A DNA stretch of 64,000 bases from Methylocaldum szegediense (GTDB lineage Bacteria > Pseudomonadota > Gammaproteobacteria > Methylococcales > Methylococcaceae). The stretch covers positions 3,754,001 through 3,818,000 of the forward strand of contig NZ_OX458333.1 in NCBI RefSeq assembly GCF_949769195.1. Reading direction: 5' to 3'. A program made the position numbers and the translations under genes. The notes under the pieces were generated by a model. It did no database searches. It was given only the letters and a program-made list of their open reading frames with translations, and was not told where the DNA came from. The first letter of the stretch is position 1, and each line of letters begins with the position of its first letter. Shown here piece by piece: positions 33,050 through 45,861 of this stretch.

Positions 33050-33220
33050 ATGTCCCAATATCGAAAGTTCATTTGTTCCGCTTGCGGTTATGTCTACGAT
33101 GAGGAGCTAGGCGACCCCGATTCCGGCATAGCCCCGGGCACGCGATGGGAAGACATTCCGGACGACTGGGTGTGCCCGGAATGCGGCGTGGACAAGAGTT
33201 ACTTTGATGTCATGGAGTAA
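33050..33220 (+). CDS. rubredoxin
   Basis: Small electron carrier of 56 residues with one iron held by four cysteines: [19 protein letters not shown] near the N terminus and [13 protein letters not shown] near the C terminus, in the usual CXXC spacing. GAGGAG precedes the ATG by about 11 bases. It lies 105 bases downstream of trxB on the same strand; cotranscription is plausible. Partner enzyme unknown; rubredoxins serve alkane hydroxylases and oxygen-defence enzymes, neither of which is here. Confidence 0.95.
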
Positions 33221-33568: not shown

Positions 33569-35245
33569 CTAGCCCGTGGTTTTCTGACGAATGCGGGCGG
33601 ATGCCGGGAGGACCCGTTCCAGCAATTTCGAGCCCTGAACGGCGGGCGTTTCGGTTGGTGCCGAAAGGTTGGCGATGCGACGGCCCTCTTCGACCAGGAT
33701 CTGTCGTTCTTTCTCCATCTCCCGGAGTTGCTCCACCACGCGGTCGCCGCTCAGATCCAAGCCTAACGCGATGCCGTCCCGAAGGCCTTTGATCGCCGTT
33801 CGTTCGGCTGAGGGTTTCAGTTTTCGATAAAGGAAATAGGGGAGCAGCCAGGATAGGACGATGAGCAAGGCGCTGTGTATGGCGAAATCGGTGCCCAGAT
33901 AGCCTAGGTGATAAAGCGCGCTTTCGTAATAGCCTTTGACGACTTGATAGGACACCCAGCCGATGGCGATCAGAGGCAGGAGGACCGACAAGAAGCCGGA
34001 AAGTTTCAGGAAAAAGCGCTGCAACGCGTTTCCCGGATTGGCCAGGGCCAGCCGCAGCGATCGCTGTCCTTCCGCGAGAACGGTGCGGCCTACGCCGTTC
34101 CCCACCGCATCCAGTCTCGCTTTGAGCGGGATCACGGCGAGTCCCCGTTCGCCGGCTTCGACGATCAGGCGATCTTGCGCATCTTGATACCGGCTCTCGG
34201 CCCACTCATCCCATAAGATCGATTCCGGTCGCGCTTTTTCGGATCGTGGTTTCTCGTCGGGCGTCTTGGTCAAGTCGATACGCCGGCGCAGCACGCTGGC
34301 CTCGTGAGTCACGAAGGCGCGGGCGACCTCCTGGATCGGCCATTCCAACCCTTTCATCAAATCCTCACGGGTTTCCCTCCAGATGCCGGACCAGTTGGGT
34401 TCGAGTCCGGTGTAGCCGTCGCGGTTGCCGAGCTTTTCGAGGCAATCGTTCAAAGCCTTCCGCAGCGCATCCAGGCGCAGGGCTTCCGCTCGCAGTTCCA
34501 GTTGATGGATGACGTGGCGGTCAGCCATATCCTGGAGTATGGCCTGTAAAGTCTCGAAATCATCAAGCTTGCGTTCACCTTCGATTTCACGGCTGTCGGT
34601 GCGGAGCAAAATGGGATTTCTGAATCCCGCCTTGGCCAGGAGTTTGGCGAAATCCTCGACCTGGGCGGGATGGCCGCGATCCCACTGGTTCATCACGAAC
34701 AGCCAGGCATGTTCACCGCCGTGTGCCTGCAGCAAGCGCCAGCCTTTGTCGTCGCGATAGCGTTCGGGGCTGACCACGTAAATCAAGACGTCGATGTGGG
34801 GCAGCCAATCCAGCACGAGCTGACGATTGCTCAGTTCGGTGCTGTCGATGTCGGGCATGTCGATCCAGAGGACTTGTCTGCGTCGGTCGTCGTGGTGATA
34901 GGCGATACGCACCCGGTCGGTAGGGAAGTCTTTCGGAAGATGTTGGATCTTCACCGAATCGTGGAGATAGAGGGATACCTCGCGAGATGTCGGGCGTTCG
35001 ACGCCAGTTCGGGCGATGGACTGGCCGGCGAGCCGGTTCAGCAGGGTACTCTTGCCGACGCCCGTGCCGCCGAAAAAGGCCGCGACCAGGGGACGGTGTG
35101 TTCCGGACTCGAACAAAGCTGCCGGCGTCCGGACCTCCATTTCGTACAGGGACTGGACGTCTCCCGACGTCAGCCACCCCCCGGATTGGGCTTTTTCCGC
35201 CCAGCTTCTTGCGGTCGAAAGTAGCTGTTCGAAAGTTATTTGCAT
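33569..35245 (-). CDS. dynamin-like GTPase with a two-helix membrane segment (partner 1)
   Basis: Membrane-associated large GTPase of 558 residues, family role unknown. G1 is GGTGVGKST (59-67), a G2-like threonine lies in ERPTSREV, G3 is DMPDIDS (129-135) in place of the usual DTPG, and G4 is NQWD (186-189). Behind the GTPase domain come a helical region and two hydrophobic helices (LSVLLPLIAIGWVSYQVVKG and FAIHSALLIVLSWLLPYFLY), then a charged coiled tail. The start is 3 bases after the stop of the paralogous GTPase gene, so they are surely one operon. Bacterial dynamin pairs act in membrane remodelling or defence; that is inference here. Confidence 0.72.
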   Translation of the reverse strand: MQITFEQLLSTARSWAEKAQSGGWLTSGDVQSLYEMEVRTPAALFESGTHRPLVAAFFGGTGVGKSTLLNRLAGQSIARTGVERPTSREVSLYLHDSVKIQHLPKDFPTDRVRIAYHHDDRRRQVLWIDMPDIDSTELSNRQLVLDWLPHIDVLIYVVSPERYRDDKGWRLLQAHGGEHAWLFVMNQWDRGHPAQVEDFAKLLAKAGFRNPILLRTDSREIEGERKLDDFETLQAILQDMADRHVIHQLELRAEALRLDALRKALNDCLEKLGNRDGYTGLEPNWSGIWRETREDLMKGLEWPIQEVARAFVTHEASVLRRRIDLTKTPDEKPRSEKARPESILWDEWAESRYQDAQDRLIVEAGERGLAVIPLKARLDAVGNGVGRTVLAEGQRSLRLALANPGNALQRFFLKLSGFLSVLLPLIAIGWVSYQVVKGYYESALYHLGYLGTDFAIHSALLIVLSWLLPYFLYRKLKPSAERTAIKGLRDGIALGLDLSGDRVVEQLREMEKERQILVEEGRRIANLSAPTETPAVQGSKLLERVLPASARIRQKTTG

Positions 35246-35248
35246 GGT

Positions 35249-37111
35249 TTAATCCAGTTGCGCCTCGGCCGAGTCGATAGCCTCGCGGGGAATGTTGAAC
35301 TGTCGGGAGGTGTCCATTTGTTCCGGCAGACTGTTCAAATAGGTATGAACAGTCTTGTTGAACAATTCTTCCACGGCTTTGAACTGTTGCTGCTTGAGCT
35401 CGGCTGCCGCTTTGTTCATGTAACGCCCCAAGGCGCTCTCGGTCAGCATGGTGGTGAGGGAGAGCATGGCCGGTGCGATGATGAAATCCTGCACACCGAT
35501 GCCGCCCGTATGCAGGGCTACCGCTAGGGCTGCTGCATCGGTGGTGACGCGTGTTGCCCTGAGGCTGTTCAGAACCGCCGGATGTTCCCGCAGCCGATCG
35601 TACAGTCCGTGCGCTGTTTTTTCGATCTGCGGCTGGAAGGCTCGCAGGTATTGGTCGACGGCCACGGCATAACGGTTGGCTAGAACCGGTCTGGCGCTTC
35701 GGAGCAATTCCGCCAGCTCCTTCCACCAGGCTTGCCGGAAGGGTTCCTCTTCCCGTTTTAAGAGTATGGTCTCGCTGAGACGGATGAACAGATGTTCAGC
35801 TGCCTGGTGCAAGATCGCCGCTTCGCCGCTGACACTTTGTTGGCGGCGACCACCTACGGCTCGGCCGAGTTTGACGATCTGTCGAACCGGCCAGGTGACG
35901 ATCTTGCGTGCAGTGAGCAGCGTACCAGCGAGGCCGGGAATCTCGAGCAGGGTCAAGAGTTCCGCTAGCGCCCTCTGAAACGTTTCGTAATGGTGCGGGT
36001 GATTGAGATAGTCCCGCTTGTAGATGTTCAAGCTGTCGCGCACGGCCTCGTCGACCAGGTTGCGCCACTCGGCCTTCAGGTTGTGCTCGGCTTTGACCGG
36101 CACCAGCCAGTCGCGCCAGTGAATTTGGACGAAGCGCTTGGCGCTTTTCGCGTGTTGCTTGCGGTGAACTCCGCGGATCGCCCGATCTACGGCGTTGAGG
36201 AGCTGTGCGCGCTCGCTGTGCAACAGGGCAAAATCATCCGCTTGGATATTTTCTAAATATGGAACGGTGATGATGGGAGGCGGCGGATCCCGTCTGGCAT
36301 TTCGCCATTTCTCCTGCAGCGACTCCGCCAAAGTCTGGTAAGACGCTTTCTCGATCTTGTTCAAGCAGATCACGGTGGGTTGAGACAGCGGTTCCAACAG
36401 GCCGATCAACTCCCAAACCGACAAGTCGGCGTACTTGTCCTTGCTCAAGATCAGCAATACCACGTCCGCTAGGGCGGCTACGCGAAGCACGGCCTGCCGG
36501 TACTCATCGGCATCGACGGAATCGAAATCCGGAGTATCCCAAAGTACGGTACCGCTCAAGGGGTGCCGCGCATCGGTCGTCGTTTCAACGAGCGCAAAGC
36601 AGTCATAACGGTCCGACGGTAAGGCATCCCGAGGGCAGCGCTGATAGTGACGGAAATACCCGTCGATCCATTCCACACGGTCGGGAGAGAGATTGATGTA
36701 AAAGCCTTGCGGATGAACGGTAAAACCGGCCAGAGGACTGACCTCAGCGAGTTTTTTTTCGAGCAACCAATTGATGACCGAGCTTTTTCCGGCCTGGGTG
36801 GGGCCGAGAACGGCGACCTGCAGCGGATGATGCTCTTTCGTTTGAATCAACTCGCTTTTTTCCAGCACTGCCTCGCCGAAGCTGATTGATTGCAGATTTC
36901 GCCGCAGTTCGAGAAAGCGTCCCTCATCGTCCGGCGGGATATGCTTCAAAACACTTTCGTAACTGTGCTTCAAGCGGCGGATAAAGGAAAGCATGGTCGG
37001 GGTCGCTGGCGAGCCATCCAGATTGCTGAAAGGAAGATTGTACACGATGGCGTTTCGCACGCGCGGGTCCTGAGATTGGATGACCGGACCTTTCCGATTG
37101 CTGAAAGACAT
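35249..37111 (-). CDS. dynamin-like GTPase (partner 2)
   Basis: Large GTPase of 620 residues paralogous to the next gene. G1 is GPTQAGKSS (103-111), G3 DTPDFDS (192-198) and G4 NKIE (251-254). Both proteins share the W-D-x-P-D-x-D-S form of G3, which supports common descent. The long helical C-terminal part has no obvious transmembrane helix, but LHTGGIGVQDFIIAPAMLSL looks like an amphipathic or hairpin membrane-insertion segment. Upstream is a 900-base gap that must hold the operon promoter. The paired organisation resembles two-component bacterial dynamins such as those in Campylobacter, but no assignment to a named family is made. Confidence 0.72.
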   Translation of the reverse strand: MSFSNRKGPVIQSQDPRVRNAIVYNLPFSNLDGSPATPTMLSFIRRLKHSYESVLKHIPPDDEGRFLELRRNLQSISFGEAVLEKSELIQTKEHHPLQVAVLGPTQAGKSSVINWLLEKKLAEVSPLAGFTVHPQGFYINLSPDRVEWIDGYFRHYQRCPRDALPSDRYDCFALVETTTDARHPLSGTVLWDTPDFDSVDADEYRQAVLRVAALADVVLLILSKDKYADLSVWELIGLLEPLSQPTVICLNKIEKASYQTLAESLQEKWRNARRDPPPPIITVPYLENIQADDFALLHSERAQLLNAVDRAIRGVHRKQHAKSAKRFVQIHWRDWLVPVKAEHNLKAEWRNLVDEAVRDSLNIYKRDYLNHPHHYETFQRALAELLTLLEIPGLAGTLLTARKIVTWPVRQIVKLGRAVGGRRQQSVSGEAAILHQAAEHLFIRLSETILLKREEEPFRQAWWKELAELLRSARPVLANRYAVAVDQYLRAFQPQIEKTAHGLYDRLREHPAVLNSLRATRVTTDAAALAVALHTGGIGVQDFIIAPAMLSLTTMLTESALGRYMNKAAAELKQQQFKAVEELFNKTVHTYLNSLPEQMDTSRQFNIPREAIDSAEAQLD

Positions 37112-39358: not shown

Positions 39359-41716
39359 CTATCTGGGCCCGACGAACGGTGGTCGTCCGAACTGAACATA
39401 GCGCATGTTGGCGGTACAACCCACGGTGGCGCAGGTGCCGCTGGGCACGCCCGGCGGCAGAGGGTTGAGGATCACGTCGTAGCCCAGGGTGGCGAATTGA
39501 TCGTCGGTTCCGGGAATGAGTCGGGCAGAGAAGTAGTCGCCGAAGCGGGTAATCTGGGTGGCGTCGCTCGATGTCACCGGGTAGAGCACAAAGTCGTCCT
39601 TGAAGCCCACGGAGATCTGGGGATACCCCAAAGTACCGCCGCCCACCGCCACCACGATGGCGATGTCCGGCCTCACCAGACCCCGGCCGCTGCCCAGGGC
39701 AGCAACTGCGAAAGCATAATTGTTATTCCAGATATCGTATTCGCTGGAAACCCGGTAGCCGTTGTCGCCGGACGGAGTGAGAGTCTCTAGCCGAACATAG
39801 GCTTGGGGCCGGCCGCCGCCGGCGTTTGTGCCCGCAGTGAAAGCAAACACATACTCCGGCCGGGACGATACGCCGAGACCCGGGATGACGCTGCGGTAAG
39901 TCGCGCCGCTGATATTGCCGGGGAAAGACACTGCGACCCAGTCGCTGCCGTCGGGAGCGGTCGAGGTGTAGCTCGCGCCCTGCTGAATCTGGCTGATGCC
40001 CACGGTGCTGGGGGAGGGGATGGAATCCTCCCCGTCCATCCAGGTGAACACCCGCAGGGTGCTTGAATTGTCGAGGGAACCTACTACCATGCGGCCGGGC
40101 GCGTTCTGGACGAAGTGGGTCTTGTTGAGGCCGTTGGACCCCGTCAGTTCGGCGAAACGGTAATTCACGGCGGTCGCCGCGGGGTTAGCCATGTCGGCCA
40201 GCGACAATCGGGGCACGATGCGCCGTCCGGTGTAGACTTGGCCGGGGGTGGAGAATCCGTGGTCGACGCCTACGTACAGAAAGGTGTCGGACCAGGCTAG
40301 ATCGGGGTAGTCCAGCCATTCGTTATTGTTGATGCCGAGTCCGTCGGAAACGCCGGCCACGTTGGTGCCGGTGAGATCGACGTAGGTCCACGCATTCCAG
40401 AAGTCGTTCCTGATGGCGGCAGGGGTTGCCCAGGCAATGCGAAGCCGGTTGGGCGAGGTGATCACGTTGGGGGTTACCGCGGTGTTCACTACCGGCTGGT
40501 ACTGGAGCAGCCAGACGAACAGGTTTTGATTTCGCAGGTACACCACCACTTGGTCGCAGCATAGGCCACCGTCGTCTTGCGGGAAGAAGGAGGTGCGGGC
40601 GGGATTGCCCGGCTGCGGACTGAAGAGATTTACGTCGGTGAGTTTCGCTCCGCCATCAGTGGAATAGCTGATGCCCGTATTGTAGGTGGCGAGTACCACG
40701 CCATTGGGCGCATCGGCGGCCACGTTGGGATCCGGCGGTACGCCGGCGCTGCGCATGCTGGTATTGCGCGGGATCCGAACCGCTGCTCCGCCTTGGCTGG
40801 TGCCGAGGTCGGTGGCAACGATGTTGTTGGGATTGATGGGCGCGGGCAGGAGGCGCGGCGGCCCCAAGGGCACGAAGATGGGCGATTCGGCGTTGGGACC
40901 GAAAGTGGCCGGCGGCGGAGCGGGCGGGTAGACGGCCTCGCTGGGTTTCTGCACTGTGGCTTGGCCCGACCGACTCTCAAAAGGTCCGGGTGGCGCAACG
41001 TTCGGAGCGATCGTGCGGCTTTCGACGAAGGTTTCGGGAAACGAGCCGCACCCGTATTCGCCCTTCACGACCAACTCGTTCTCGCTCCCATCGACCGGCA
41101 TCTTCAGTAAGCTGTCGAACCGGGCGTCCTTTCCTGCCTCCAGGATGCCAAGGGAAATGGGCAGAGTGGCGGGGCCGGCGTAGCTGCCGTTGCTTACGGT
41201 GATCTCGGTCACTTGTACAGTGCAGGCGCTCTCATCTCCGGTATTGCGCAGCAGAATCTGGGCGCTGGCAGTTTCCTCGTCGTCCCAGGCAGAGACCGCC
41301 ACGTCCTCGACGACGATATTGGCAGGCAGGAAAGATACCGAGTCCGACCCAGCCAGAGCCTGCGCGGTGCCGACGAAGAACACGAAGAGAACGAAGGCTA
41401 GCCGTTCGAAAAGGCGAAGCCCGGAATCGGATTGTCTGTTGCCTCTTGGGAACCCGACTCGGGCTCCACATTGACAGTACTGTACCGGGGATTGAAAAGC
41501 GCGGCGGCGGTGCCCGCCTTTTTTCGCCTGGTCGCGACTGATGATATTCGCCGTTGGAGTTCGACCTTCGAATCTTGTCCCTGCCTCCGGGCGGAGATGG
41601 ATATCATCGAACCGGTGATCGAACCGATAGGAAGGACTGAAAGCTCGTCCCAATCGGGATTGAGTAAACGCCTTGCTTTTGGTTCCCTTCGCTTCCGTGA
41701 CGTCTTGCGTCGCCAT
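39359..41716 (-). CDS. large secreted or membrane-anchored protein of unknown function, possible propeller
   Basis: Frame of 785 residues. About 100 basic residues come first, then a hydrophobic segment (RLAFVLFVFFVGTAQALAG) that looks like a signal peptide, then an extracellular-type region. DEETASAQILLRNTGDESA resembles an Ig-like repeat; a Pro-rich linker follows; the rest (GISYSTDGGAKLTD, NEWLDYPDLAWSDTFLYVGVDHGFS, FTWMDGEDSIPS) looks like a beta-propeller of the sialidase/BNR kind, without clear catalytic residues. No in-frame start codon lies close to the hydrophobic segment, so the annotated ATG 41716 (with AGAGGA upstream) leaves an unusual leader. An upstream frameshift or an uncommon start is possible. 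Confidence 0.6.
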   Translation of the reverse strand: MATQDVTEAKGTKSKAFTQSRLGRAFSPSYRFDHRFDDIHLRPEAGTRFEGRTPTANIISRDQAKKGGHRRRAFQSPVQYCQCGARVGFPRGNRQSDSGLRLFERLAFVLFVFFVGTAQALAGSDSVSFLPANIVVEDVAVSAWDDEETASAQILLRNTGDESACTVQVTEITVSNGSYAGPATLPISLGILEAGKDARFDSLLKMPVDGSENELVVKGEYGCGSFPETFVESRTIAPNVAPPGPFESRSGQATVQKPSEAVYPPAPPPATFGPNAESPIFVPLGPPRLLPAPINPNNIVATDLGTSQGGAAVRIPRNTSMRSAGVPPDPNVAADAPNGVVLATYNTGISYSTDGGAKLTDVNLFSPQPGNPARTSFFPQDDGGLCCDQVVVYLRNQNLFVWLLQYQPVVNTAVTPNVITSPNRLRIAWATPAAIRNDFWNAWTYVDLTGTNVAGVSDGLGINNNEWLDYPDLAWSDTFLYVGVDHGFSTPGQVYTGRRIVPRLSLADMANPAATAVNYRFAELTGSNGLNKTHFVQNAPGRMVVGSLDNSSTLRVFTWMDGEDSIPSPSTVGISQIQQGASYTSTAPDGSDWVAVSFPGNISGATYRSVIPGLGVSSRPEYVFAFTAGTNAGGGRPQAYVRLETLTPSGDNGYRVSSEYDIWNNNYAFAVAALGSGRGLVRPDIAIVVAVGGGTLGYPQISVGFKDDFVLYPVTSSDATQITRFGDYFSARLIPGTDDQFATLGYDVILNPLPPGVPSGTCATVGCTANMRYVQFGRPPFVGPR

Positions 41717-44791: not shown

Positions 44792-45757
44792 TTATCTGTC
44801 AAGTCCCGCAAGATCGTAAACCTTCTTTCGAAAAAGATGAGGATGGGACAGTTGCCAGTTTTTGAGAGCCTGGATCGGGGTGAGATGGCGTAAGGCCTTT
44901 TGGGGAATGTGATGATTGTACAGCTCGACATAGCGGTGCAGGGTGGTGTCCAGATCGGCGGTTGAATCGAAGTGATGGGTTTGCAACACCTCCTCGATGC
45001 GGCCATTGAAGCGTTCCACCAGGCCATTCGTTTGGGGCCGGCCCGGCGGAATCAGGCGATGTTCGATGCCTTGTTCAGTACAGAGGCGGTCAAACTCATG
45101 CGTCCCCGAGGGCTGCCGAGTTCGGGTCAGGAAACGGTCGGTAAACTCCGAGCCGTTGTCGGTCAGGCATTTCTGGATGCGGAAAGGCGCGGCCTGAATC
45201 ACCGCTTTGAGGAAGTCCTTTGCGCTTAAGGCGGTGCGGTTGGGCTTGAGGGCGACATAGACCCAGCGGGTGGCGCGGTCGATGGCGACGAACAGGTATC
45301 GGCGGGGTTCGCCGTCGATGGCGGGCAAGTACTTAACATCCAGGTGAAGGAAGCCGGGCTCATAGGCCTTGAAGGGTTTGACCTTCGCCTTCTCTGTAGG
45401 CGGAAGCAGGGTCTTGAGGGACGCCACCCCGTGGCGGCGCAGGCAGCGGTCTAGCCCGGAACGGGACACGGCGGGATTGAGAAATTCCCGGGTCACGGCC
45501 AGGAGATCATCCAAGGGGAGGAGCAGAGCTTGGCGGAGGTAGACCACGATGGCTTCCTGGGCGGGCGTGAGCGTGGTTCTGAGGGTGTGGGGCCGGTGTG
45601 AGGCATCTTCGACCGAGGAGCGGTGTTTCCACTTGCGGACGGTCGTTCGGCTAATGCCATGCTTTTGGGCCAAGGCGCGCTCGCTCAACGTGGACGCTTG
45701 AATGGCCTGCCGAACGGCCGGGGTGGTACGGGCGTTCTTATGAAGACGAATCTGCAT
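44792..45757 (-). CDS. IS481-family transposase, copy 1
   Basis: DDE integrase-type transposase of 321 residues. An N-terminal helix-turn-helix (LSERALAQKHGISRTTVRKWK) is followed by a catalytic core with Asp in GFLHLDVKYLPA, Asp in KCLTDNGSEFTDR and Glu in GLVERFNGRIEEVL. ATG 45757 is preferred over 45772. The frame has no stop of its own: it runs through the IS end and uses TAA formed at the junction with the target duplication at 44792-44794. Confidence 0.93.
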   Translation of the reverse strand: MQIRLHKNARTTPAVRQAIQASTLSERALAQKHGISRTTVRKWKHRSSVEDASHRPHTLRTTLTPAQEAIVVYLRQALLLPLDDLLAVTREFLNPAVSRSGLDRCLRRHGVASLKTLLPPTEKAKVKPFKAYEPGFLHLDVKYLPAIDGEPRRYLFVAIDRATRWVYVALKPNRTALSAKDFLKAVIQAAPFRIQKCLTDNGSEFTDRFLTRTRQPSGTHEFDRLCTEQGIEHRLIPPGRPQTNGLVERFNGRIEEVLQTHHFDSTADLDTTLHRYVELYNHHIPQKALRHLTPIQALKNWQLSHPHLFRKKVYDLAGLDR

Positions 45758-45861
45758 GGAGAGAAACCTCACTTGGACGAACCGAATATCTCCTGGAGAA
45801 GGCTCCGGGCTTCGAACAGAGCATAACTCCTTCTCGGTAAATAATCACACGAGACGCGACA
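44797..45861 (-). mobile_element. IS481-family insertion sequence, copy 1
   Basis: 1065 bases. Ends are TGTC...GACA with imperfect inverted repeats (TGTCAAGTCCCG and TGTCGCGTCTCG). It is flanked by a perfect 6-base target duplication CTTATC at 44791-44796 and 45862-45867, which shows a simple insertion. It splits the muramidase-like frame. The second copy at 47591 has the same length and opposite orientation. Confidence 0.93.

Follow-up and report, generated by a model that had tools for sequence, protein, structure and literature searches.

A conserved tandem pair of dynamin-like GTPases with non-canonical G3 and G4 motifs in Methylocaldum szegediense and its relatives: a candidate inner-membrane remodelling machine

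The 64,000-nucleotide stretch of the Methylocaldum szegediense genome analysed here (contig NZ_OX458333.1, positions 3,754,001 to 3,818,000; referred to as the window) carries two adjacent minus-strand genes, designated A and B, each coding for a large dynamin-like GTPase. Both genes are conserved and nearly obligate companions, the models of their products share a dynamin fold, B contains a hydrophobic hairpin and the nucleotide-binding motifs of the two proteins are asymmetric. Since the pair appears to be vertically inherited and self-contained, and dynamin fold and probable membrane anchor of B come in addition, an inner-membrane remodelling heterodimer is the best reading of these data. 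By analogy with known systems, we hold with moderate confidence that A and B form a heterotypic dynamin-like machine for remodelling or stabilising the inner membrane. A sequence-only reading of the window had already pointed to two large GTPase genes three bases apart, and the open reading frames (ORFs), in which the TAA of A precedes the ATG of B, bear this out. The two genes are probably translationally coupled.

The family alignments comprised 128 distinct A strings and 120 B strings from the order and from ten other family labels. They were taken from best-match lists and are thus biased towards close relatives, and as some genes occur twice (in two collections, with different ends), there are fewer independent genes than strings. 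Both proteins have a P-loop of the GxxxxGKS/T type and a candidate switch-I threonine, the latter assigned by position. In A, residues G103, K109, S110 and T131 are invariant (128/128 each); in B, G59, K65 and S66 are found in all 120 strings and T86 in 119, with one gap. The canonical G3 motif is DxxG, which is usual in the dynamin superfamily but not its delimiting feature. A and B both deviate from it: the glycine is replaced by aspartate within a D-x-P-D-x-D-S motif in 128/128 A strings and in every B string that can be aligned at this site (119, the remaining string of the 120 being gapped). The aspartate in place of the G3 glycine thus characterises the family. The motif had been described from the sequence as an aberrant substitute for DTPG. 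Its presence in A and B stands, but a motif kept throughout the family, and also in an actinobacterial pair described below, is not aberrant. Because the G3 glycine is missing from both proteins, we file the pair as a variant of the dynamin superfamily and not as a canonical member.

The canonical G4 motif is (N/T)KxD, the aspartate of which reads guanine. Neither A nor B has it, and the two differ from each other (A, NKIE; B, NQWD), as had been noticed at the outset. In A, the NK dipeptide is invariant (128/128) and an aspartate at the fourth place occurs in just 17 of 128 strings. Among 119 alignable B strings, the asparagine is found in 119 and the aspartate in 118, with glutamine (101), histidine (17) or lysine (1) at the position of the canonical lysine. 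Judged by sequence, the G4 motifs of A and B appear to be complementary halves, NK in A and N..D in B. The G domains of both proteins are related to each other (hhalign E 1.3e-12 over 149 columns), and the earlier designation of the genes as paralogous is supported for this domain. In Pfam, the pair matched Dynamin_N weakly, slightly below the cut-off, and MMR_HSR1 above the cut-off; matches to NCBIfam and PADLOC models were sub-threshold or partial. Neither protein falls into a characterised housekeeping GTPase family, an assignment that would have counted against the sequence-only reading. Der, Era and YsxC were considered and rejected, as the NCBIfam scores were far under the cut-offs: A scored 35.3 bits with Der, for which 306.7 are required, and B 26.2 bits with Era, where the cut-off is 237.

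The dynamin-like nature of the proteins, proposed earlier from the sequence, is supported by their predicted fold. The AlphaFold2 (AF2) models have mean predicted local distance difference test (pLDDT) values of 85.2 for A and 84.7 for B, and both place a GTPase domain between N- and C-terminal neck and trunk helices, as is characteristic of the superfamily. In Foldseek searches with A and with B, the first 30 rows were dynamin-superfamily or EHD proteins, led by OPA1, IniA, BDLP and DRP1 for A (Cj-DLP at rank 10) and by BDLP, IniA, Cj-DLP, DRP1 and mitofusin for B. VIA-align superimposed A on Fzo1 with a Z score of 21.6 (root mean square deviation (rmsd) 5.8, 325 aligned residues, spanning residues 39-620) and on mitofusin 1 with 19.3 (rmsd 7.2). 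The corresponding values for B were 21.8 (rmsd 3.3, 291 aligned residues, residues 1-537) and 21.2, and the B-Fzo1 alignment takes in helices that flank the G domain on either side. The models thus support a dynamin-superfamily fold of both A and B. Sequence searches of the PDB, by single sequence (E 1) and by profile (E 0.01), retrieved no solved dynamin, only general GTPases and a few other P-loop proteins.

In both proteins hydrophobic stretches sit between long C-terminal helices, and in the model the hairpin of B is probably located where mitofusins carry their tip helices. Both B segments reach a hydropathy of at least 1.6 in 72 of 120 strings and at least 1.2 in 117 and 118, respectively, of the 118 alignable ones; no B string reaches 1.6 in two other regions tested. 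The proposal that only one protein has clear transmembrane helices holds for the window proteins by hydropathy, the tip of A attaining at most 1.48 and its maximum of 1.65 falling inside the G domain. Across the family the distinction is blurred. The A stretch reaches at least 1.6 in 73 of 127 alignable strings, and the family median of the best value is 1.65 for A versus 1.70 and 1.93 for the two segments of B. As the A stretch is nearly as hydrophobic as the B segments, A may also enter the membrane. Residues 522-556 are among the most conserved parts of A, with R518 and R521 just before the stretch and D525 inside it invariant in 128/128 strings, and were modelled with low confidence (block means 57-73). 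We propose that an anchored B contrasts with a paddle-like A.

Table 1. Positions of the two GTPase genes and their motifs in the window
Feature	Position in window	Strand	Basis
Gene A, dynamin-like GTPase, 620 aa, first of pair	35249-37111	minus	ORF; in 52/61 genomes; predicted fold
Gene B, dynamin-like GTPase, 558 aa, two hydrophobic segments, second of pair	33569-35245	minus	ORF; in 52/61 genomes; predicted fold
3-base gap, TAA of A to ATG of B	35246-35248	minus	sequence
A G1/P-loop GPTQAGKSS, residues 103-111	36779-36805	minus	sequence and family alignment
A G3 DTPDFDS, residues 192-198	36518-36538	minus	family alignment
A G4 NKIE, residues 251-254	36350-36361	minus	NK invariant, fourth position variable
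A hydrophobic stretch, residues about 522-556, between long C-terminal helices; candidate membrane-binding tip	35444-35548	minus	hydropathy, conservation, model
B G1/P-loop GGTGVGKST, residues 59-67	35045-35071	minus	sequence and family alignment
B G3 DMPDIDS, residues 129-135	34841-34861	minus	family alignment
B G4 NQWD, residues 186-189	34679-34690	minus	Asn and Asp retained, Gln or His in place of Lys
First hydrophobic segment of B, residues 411-429; probable membrane helix	33959-34015	minus	Kyte-Doolittle 2.02; inside modelled helix 407-445
Second hydrophobic segment of B, residues 454-472; probable membrane helix	33830-33886	minus	Kyte-Doolittle 1.93; inside modelled helix 452-476

The two genes are rarely found without each other. 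In an order-level sample of 61 relatives, the M. szegediense genome included, A and B are each present in 52 genomes, both in 51 and either in 53. A occurs alone in an 83% complete genome (G035), and B alone, in two pieces, in a 78% complete one (G029). Seven of the eight genomes with neither gene belong to the families f6 and f7, the eighth (G018) being 89% complete. Among the matches listed for the order-level genomes there is no second full-length copy of A or B. In a class-level draw of 369 genomes, for which E <= 1e-20 was applied to a listing reported at 1e-3, A and B were again equally frequent (27 genomes each) and coincided in 26 of the 28 genomes with either gene, which cover 13 family labels; in both exceptions (G423, G364) the single gene lies at a contig end. 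In a phylum-level draw of 398 genomes, A was found at E 1e-10 in the M. szegediense genome only. The two draws sample differently, and the phylum-level result tempers claims about the width of the distribution.

Most of the pairs are also physically linked. Judged by ORF bounds, the genes adjoin or overlap each other in 73 of the 81 rows, which represent the window and the best 80 named loci of 351 relatives. B is missing from the remaining eight rows, and in three or four of these the contig ends just past A (L064, L066, L067). In the ten other families, both genes abut or overlap in 17 of 19 loci with both. Separated genes occur as well: in G017, some 0.8 Mb of a single contig separate A from B, and in G014, G022, G027 and G033 the contig runs 1.8-10 kb beyond A without B, which is on another contig. 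In G011 and G036 the genes are on separate contigs too, but with A near a contig end they may be linked. In family f152 other genes intervene in G316 and G411; in the latter (L148:14625-16165), kinase-like and PP2C-phosphatase-like ORFs, named by eye, directly follow A on the same strand before B. That A and B are retained together even after the genes have parted speaks for a common function.

In a G-domain tree of 20 A proteins, 20 B proteins and two actinobacterial rows, A forms one clade (100/99) and B another (98/99). Both lineages hence predate the divergence of the sampled families, and vertical inheritance of the pair is the best reading. The best 80 named loci carry labels of Methylococcales groups, a methanotrophic endosymbiont or unresolved metagenome-assembled genomes (MAGs), with the exception of L061 (DYIL01000004.1), a MAG labelled Methyloversatilis universalis in which A is 92% identical to A of the window. 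Since the remaining near relatives bear the labels of Methylococcales groups, this one is probably wrong. With such near relatives and two copies of the A-subunit family of ammonia monooxygenase/particulate methane monooxygenase (AMO/pMMO), the 4.9 Mb genome of the window is very probably that of a methanotroph of this order.

From the sequence, membrane remodelling or a role in defence had been considered for the pair; the former is our best reading, and the latter is not supported. An anti-phage or stress-response dynamin system might resemble Leo, or act like DynA of Bacillus subtilis in limiting phage spread; the abstract of PMC8844932 states that this DynA confers phage resistance. Weak PADLOC matches to LeoA (B 1.8e-6, A 3.4e-7) and LeoBC (A 5.2e-7) point in the same direction. 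LeoABC and other PADLOC defence systems were nevertheless rejected as assignments, the LeoA matches being weak and partial (best stretch residues 81-119 of A, 27.7 bits, and residues 50-256 of B, 25.3 bits), like those to LeoBC and mad8. The presence of the pair in 51 of 61 relatives also counts against a defence system, and the Pfam-named neighbours among ten ORFs scanned are mostly housekeeping or transport genes, none of them a defence set. Viral contigs held no relative by tblastn or by the A and B profiles, and phage records, searched with A only, no relative by tblastn. Plasmid records yielded none for A and, for B at E 1e-3, solely a chromosome-sized Nonomuraea record. At E 10, B matched plasmid-borne GTPases and dynamin-family proteins with E values of 0.03 and above, which we take as general GTPase similarity; likewise, PADLOC matches of the neighbouring FtsK protein to the SspH and mad8 models are taken as shared motor domains. 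Phage defence is therefore an unlikely role for the pair, and a defence or stress-response system of any of these kinds seems to us quite improbable.

Another explanation starts from the methanotrophs themselves, in which the pair might build or shape the intracytoplasmic membranes that house methane monooxygenase. It accords with the labels of the best 80 of 351 loci, L061 aside, and with the presence of the pair in a genome with reaction-centre genes (G316), and it would fill a gap, the biogenesis of methanotroph internal membranes being called unknown in a passage of PMC9445010, though they derive from the inner membrane. The wider distribution speaks against it. In the class draw, 11 genomes have the AMO/pMMO family and 6 have reaction-centre genes, and the pair is present in just 3 and 1 of these, respectively; of the 27 B-bearing genomes, 23 have neither. 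G041, which belongs to the order of the window genome, carries AMO-family genes but lacks the pair. The ancestral role can thus hardly have concerned intracytoplasmic membranes, and on the basis of these gene profiles we rejected such an origin as unsupported. A role confined to these membranes is likewise not supported, and we consider the explanation as a whole unlikely; within methanotrophs, the pair may have been recruited for this purpose.

Both proteins could also be signalling GTPases that do not remodel membranes, comparable to Escherichia coli RdcA/RdcB, which activate a diguanylate cyclase; according to a passage of PMC6510439, RdcA is a soluble dynamin-like GTPase working as a switch. 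The non-canonical G3 and incomplete G4 motifs of A and B would suit such a role. The two hydrophobic segments of B and the long neck and trunk helices in both models would not, and no cyclase was recognised among the recurrent neighbours, only part of which were named by the family search. We regard a purely signalling function as improbable.

The nearest relative outside the class, a tandem GTPase pair, was found by tblastn of B against plasmid records, which returned one record of Nonomuraea gerenzanensis (NZ_LT559118.1; 35% identity over 28% of B, E 3e-10). This 11.85 Mb record is listed as a plasmid and, to judge by its size, is evidently a chromosome. The two genes (L141 5851-7917 and 7914-9806) overlap and are ordered as A and B. 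Both products share the D-x-P-D-x-D-S motif (DAPDIDS in the first, DLPDHDS in the second). The second protein resembles B in that a pair of hydrophobic segments lies close to its C-terminus and its G4 reads NQVD, and the first has an incomplete G4 (DRVP), as does A. In contrast, the helical parts can scarcely be aligned with those of A and B by sequence. In profile comparisons of G domains, the best value was that of B versus the second protein (E 4.8e-16). One-to-one orthology, suggested by motifs and gene order, was considered and dropped, as the tree does not resolve an A-first, B-second correspondence. The earlier statement that the pair matches no nameable system is partly answered by this tandem pair, and a characterised look-alike exists in Streptomyces DynA/DynB.

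In the mechanism that we envisage for the remodelling machine, B would be anchored in the inner membrane via the hairpin at its trunk tip, and A would be recruited to touch or enter the bilayer by its conserved hydrophobic tip. The G domains of A and B would pair and thereby activate hydrolysis, and the resulting movement of neck and trunk would tether, constrict or fuse small areas of the inner membrane. Heterodimer formation, activation by pairing, the membrane activity and the cellular process are inferred. The process would be a housekeeping one, likeliest at the septum or in membrane integrity, like that of Streptomyces DynA/DynB; as to which of the two, our confidence is far lower than in the machine as such. 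More daring still is the idea that A and B, with their shared DxPDxDS motif and complementary G4 halves, are a split-site GTPase, competent for nucleotide recognition or hydrolysis only as a heterodimer, and that methanotrophs recruited it to cut or seal the inner membrane during formation of intracytoplasmic membranes; we consider this combination unlikely.

Several observations weigh against an inner-membrane remodelling machine. Z scores of 14-17.5 are attained by the G domain alone with GTPases that do not belong to the superfamily (Era, EngB, EF-Tu), so the helices carry the case for a dynamin, and query-normalised Foldseek TM-scores are low (0.20-0.36 among the rows listed). The tip location was taken from the order of secondary-structure elements, not from coordinates, and hydropathy separates A poorly, its G domain also reaching 1.6 in 50 of 128 strings. 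With no G3 glycine in either protein and no G4 aspartate in A, the activity could be weak or the nucleotide a different one. The pair is missing from 341 of 369 class genomes and from the order families f6 and f7 and is thus not needed for division in general, and ftsK, located 1.7 kb from B in the window, is near the pair in just 3 of 81 rows, so that no divisome gene is conserved beside it. In one genome (G013:C14:26596-28178), A is in two pieces with stops (one TGA, one TAA) next to a whole B, which may reflect decay or a draft error. Finally, the actinobacterial comparison does not assign the partners: A scores 4e-12 against the second and 5e-11 against the first Nonomuraea protein, which gives no support for one-to-one orthology, and in the tree 66% of bootstraps unite both actinobacterial proteins, which sit on long branches.

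The surroundings of the pair are variable. The statement that no other gene is in the operon agrees with our findings: the next gene downstream, a rubredoxin by sequence (33050-33220, plus strand), is convergent with B, and none of the 40 conserved clusters listed lies upstream of A in the window. The search for a conserved gene neighbourhood that had been suggested came out negative, as no third gene common to most families was found among the order loci and the ten other families; in the latter, clusters present in six or more families are A, B, or ORFs antisense to or beside them. In 59 of the 81 rows A is flanked directly upstream by a divergent 143-aa lipoprotein-like gene (e.g. L128:9466-9894), with only a sub-threshold DUF6694 match; in 38 rows its upstream side carries a DUF2959 gene (PF11172, 3.5e-75; e.g. 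L137:8742-9428). Both were discarded as operon partners, as they are limited to part of the order and neither cluster holds a window ORF. A Pfam scan of ten chosen ORFs around the pair (22.8-45.8 kb) named eight and left two without match. The eight are an autotransporter, a CysZ-like, a radical-SAM/UPF0004 and a nucleoside-recognition (Gate) protein, FtsK, a thioredoxin-reductase-like pyridine-nucleotide disulphide oxidoreductase, an amino-acid permease and an integrase-core protein. The gene of the last (rve; 44795-45772) is transposase-like and lies some 7.7 kb from A on the upstream side, and a 785-aa ORF at 39359-41716 had no Pfam match at 1e-4. The window contains no tRNA and no Rfam family at gathering thresholds, and promoter-like and terminator-like sites are no commoner than in shuffles.

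Most of the methanotrophs sampled within the Gammaproteobacteria retain the pair, as do other families scattered over the class. It may serve as a simple bacterial example of a heterotypic dynamin pair made up of a seemingly membrane-anchored and a seemingly paddle-like subunit, a contrast otherwise seen between mitofusins and BDLP. The replaced G3 glycine and the G4 halves yield predictions on how a dynamin pair divides catalytic labour, and the pair is a concrete candidate in the question of how methanotrophs form their internal membranes. No study of the A/B pair was found in the open-licence literature by title or start of abstract, which does not imply its absence from print. A dynamin-like gene of Pseudomonas pseudoalcaligenes is described in a passage of PMC6344628 as required on fungal hyphae; we do not claim a relation to A or B.

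Among known systems, Streptomyces DynA/DynB, compared here by description only, likewise consist of two dynamin-like partners. The genes dynA and dynB are neighbours in Streptomyces, and A and B match this arrangement in being adjacent partner genes, one product of which, B, has two probable membrane segments by hydropathy. Part of PMC6104087 also presents DynA/DynB as dynamin-like partner proteins, DynB having two membrane segments; a passage of PMC8748795 says the same of DynB (locus vnz_12105), names DynA as its divisome partner and reports that both stabilise FtsZ rings. Unlike these proteins, the A/B pair is gammaproteobacterial. Cj-DLP1/Cj-DLP2 of Campylobacter jejuni are also a heterotypic dynamin pair encoded in an operon and match A and B in fold. 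As far as the cited part of PMC6104087 goes, they are cytosolic and carry a Campylobacter-specific assembly domain, and the members have negligible GTPase activity when apart and are activated by assembly. Mitofusin 1 and Fzo1, the best structural matches of the A and B models, are eukaryotic and mitochondrial and share 11-16% identity with A and B. The same part of PMC6104087 assigns tip membrane helices to mitofusins, as B probably has, and describes BDLP as carrying a paddle where mitofusins carry these permanent helices. BDLP1 from Nostoc and IniA from Mycobacterium are bacterial proteins of dynamin fold (E 1.2e-8 to 2.9e-7 in Foldseek against A and B) and were not among the PDB sequence matches. 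Bacterial dynamin pairs are thus known, and what sets the present one apart is its conserved non-canonical G3 motif together with G4 motifs that, by sequence, look like complementary halves.

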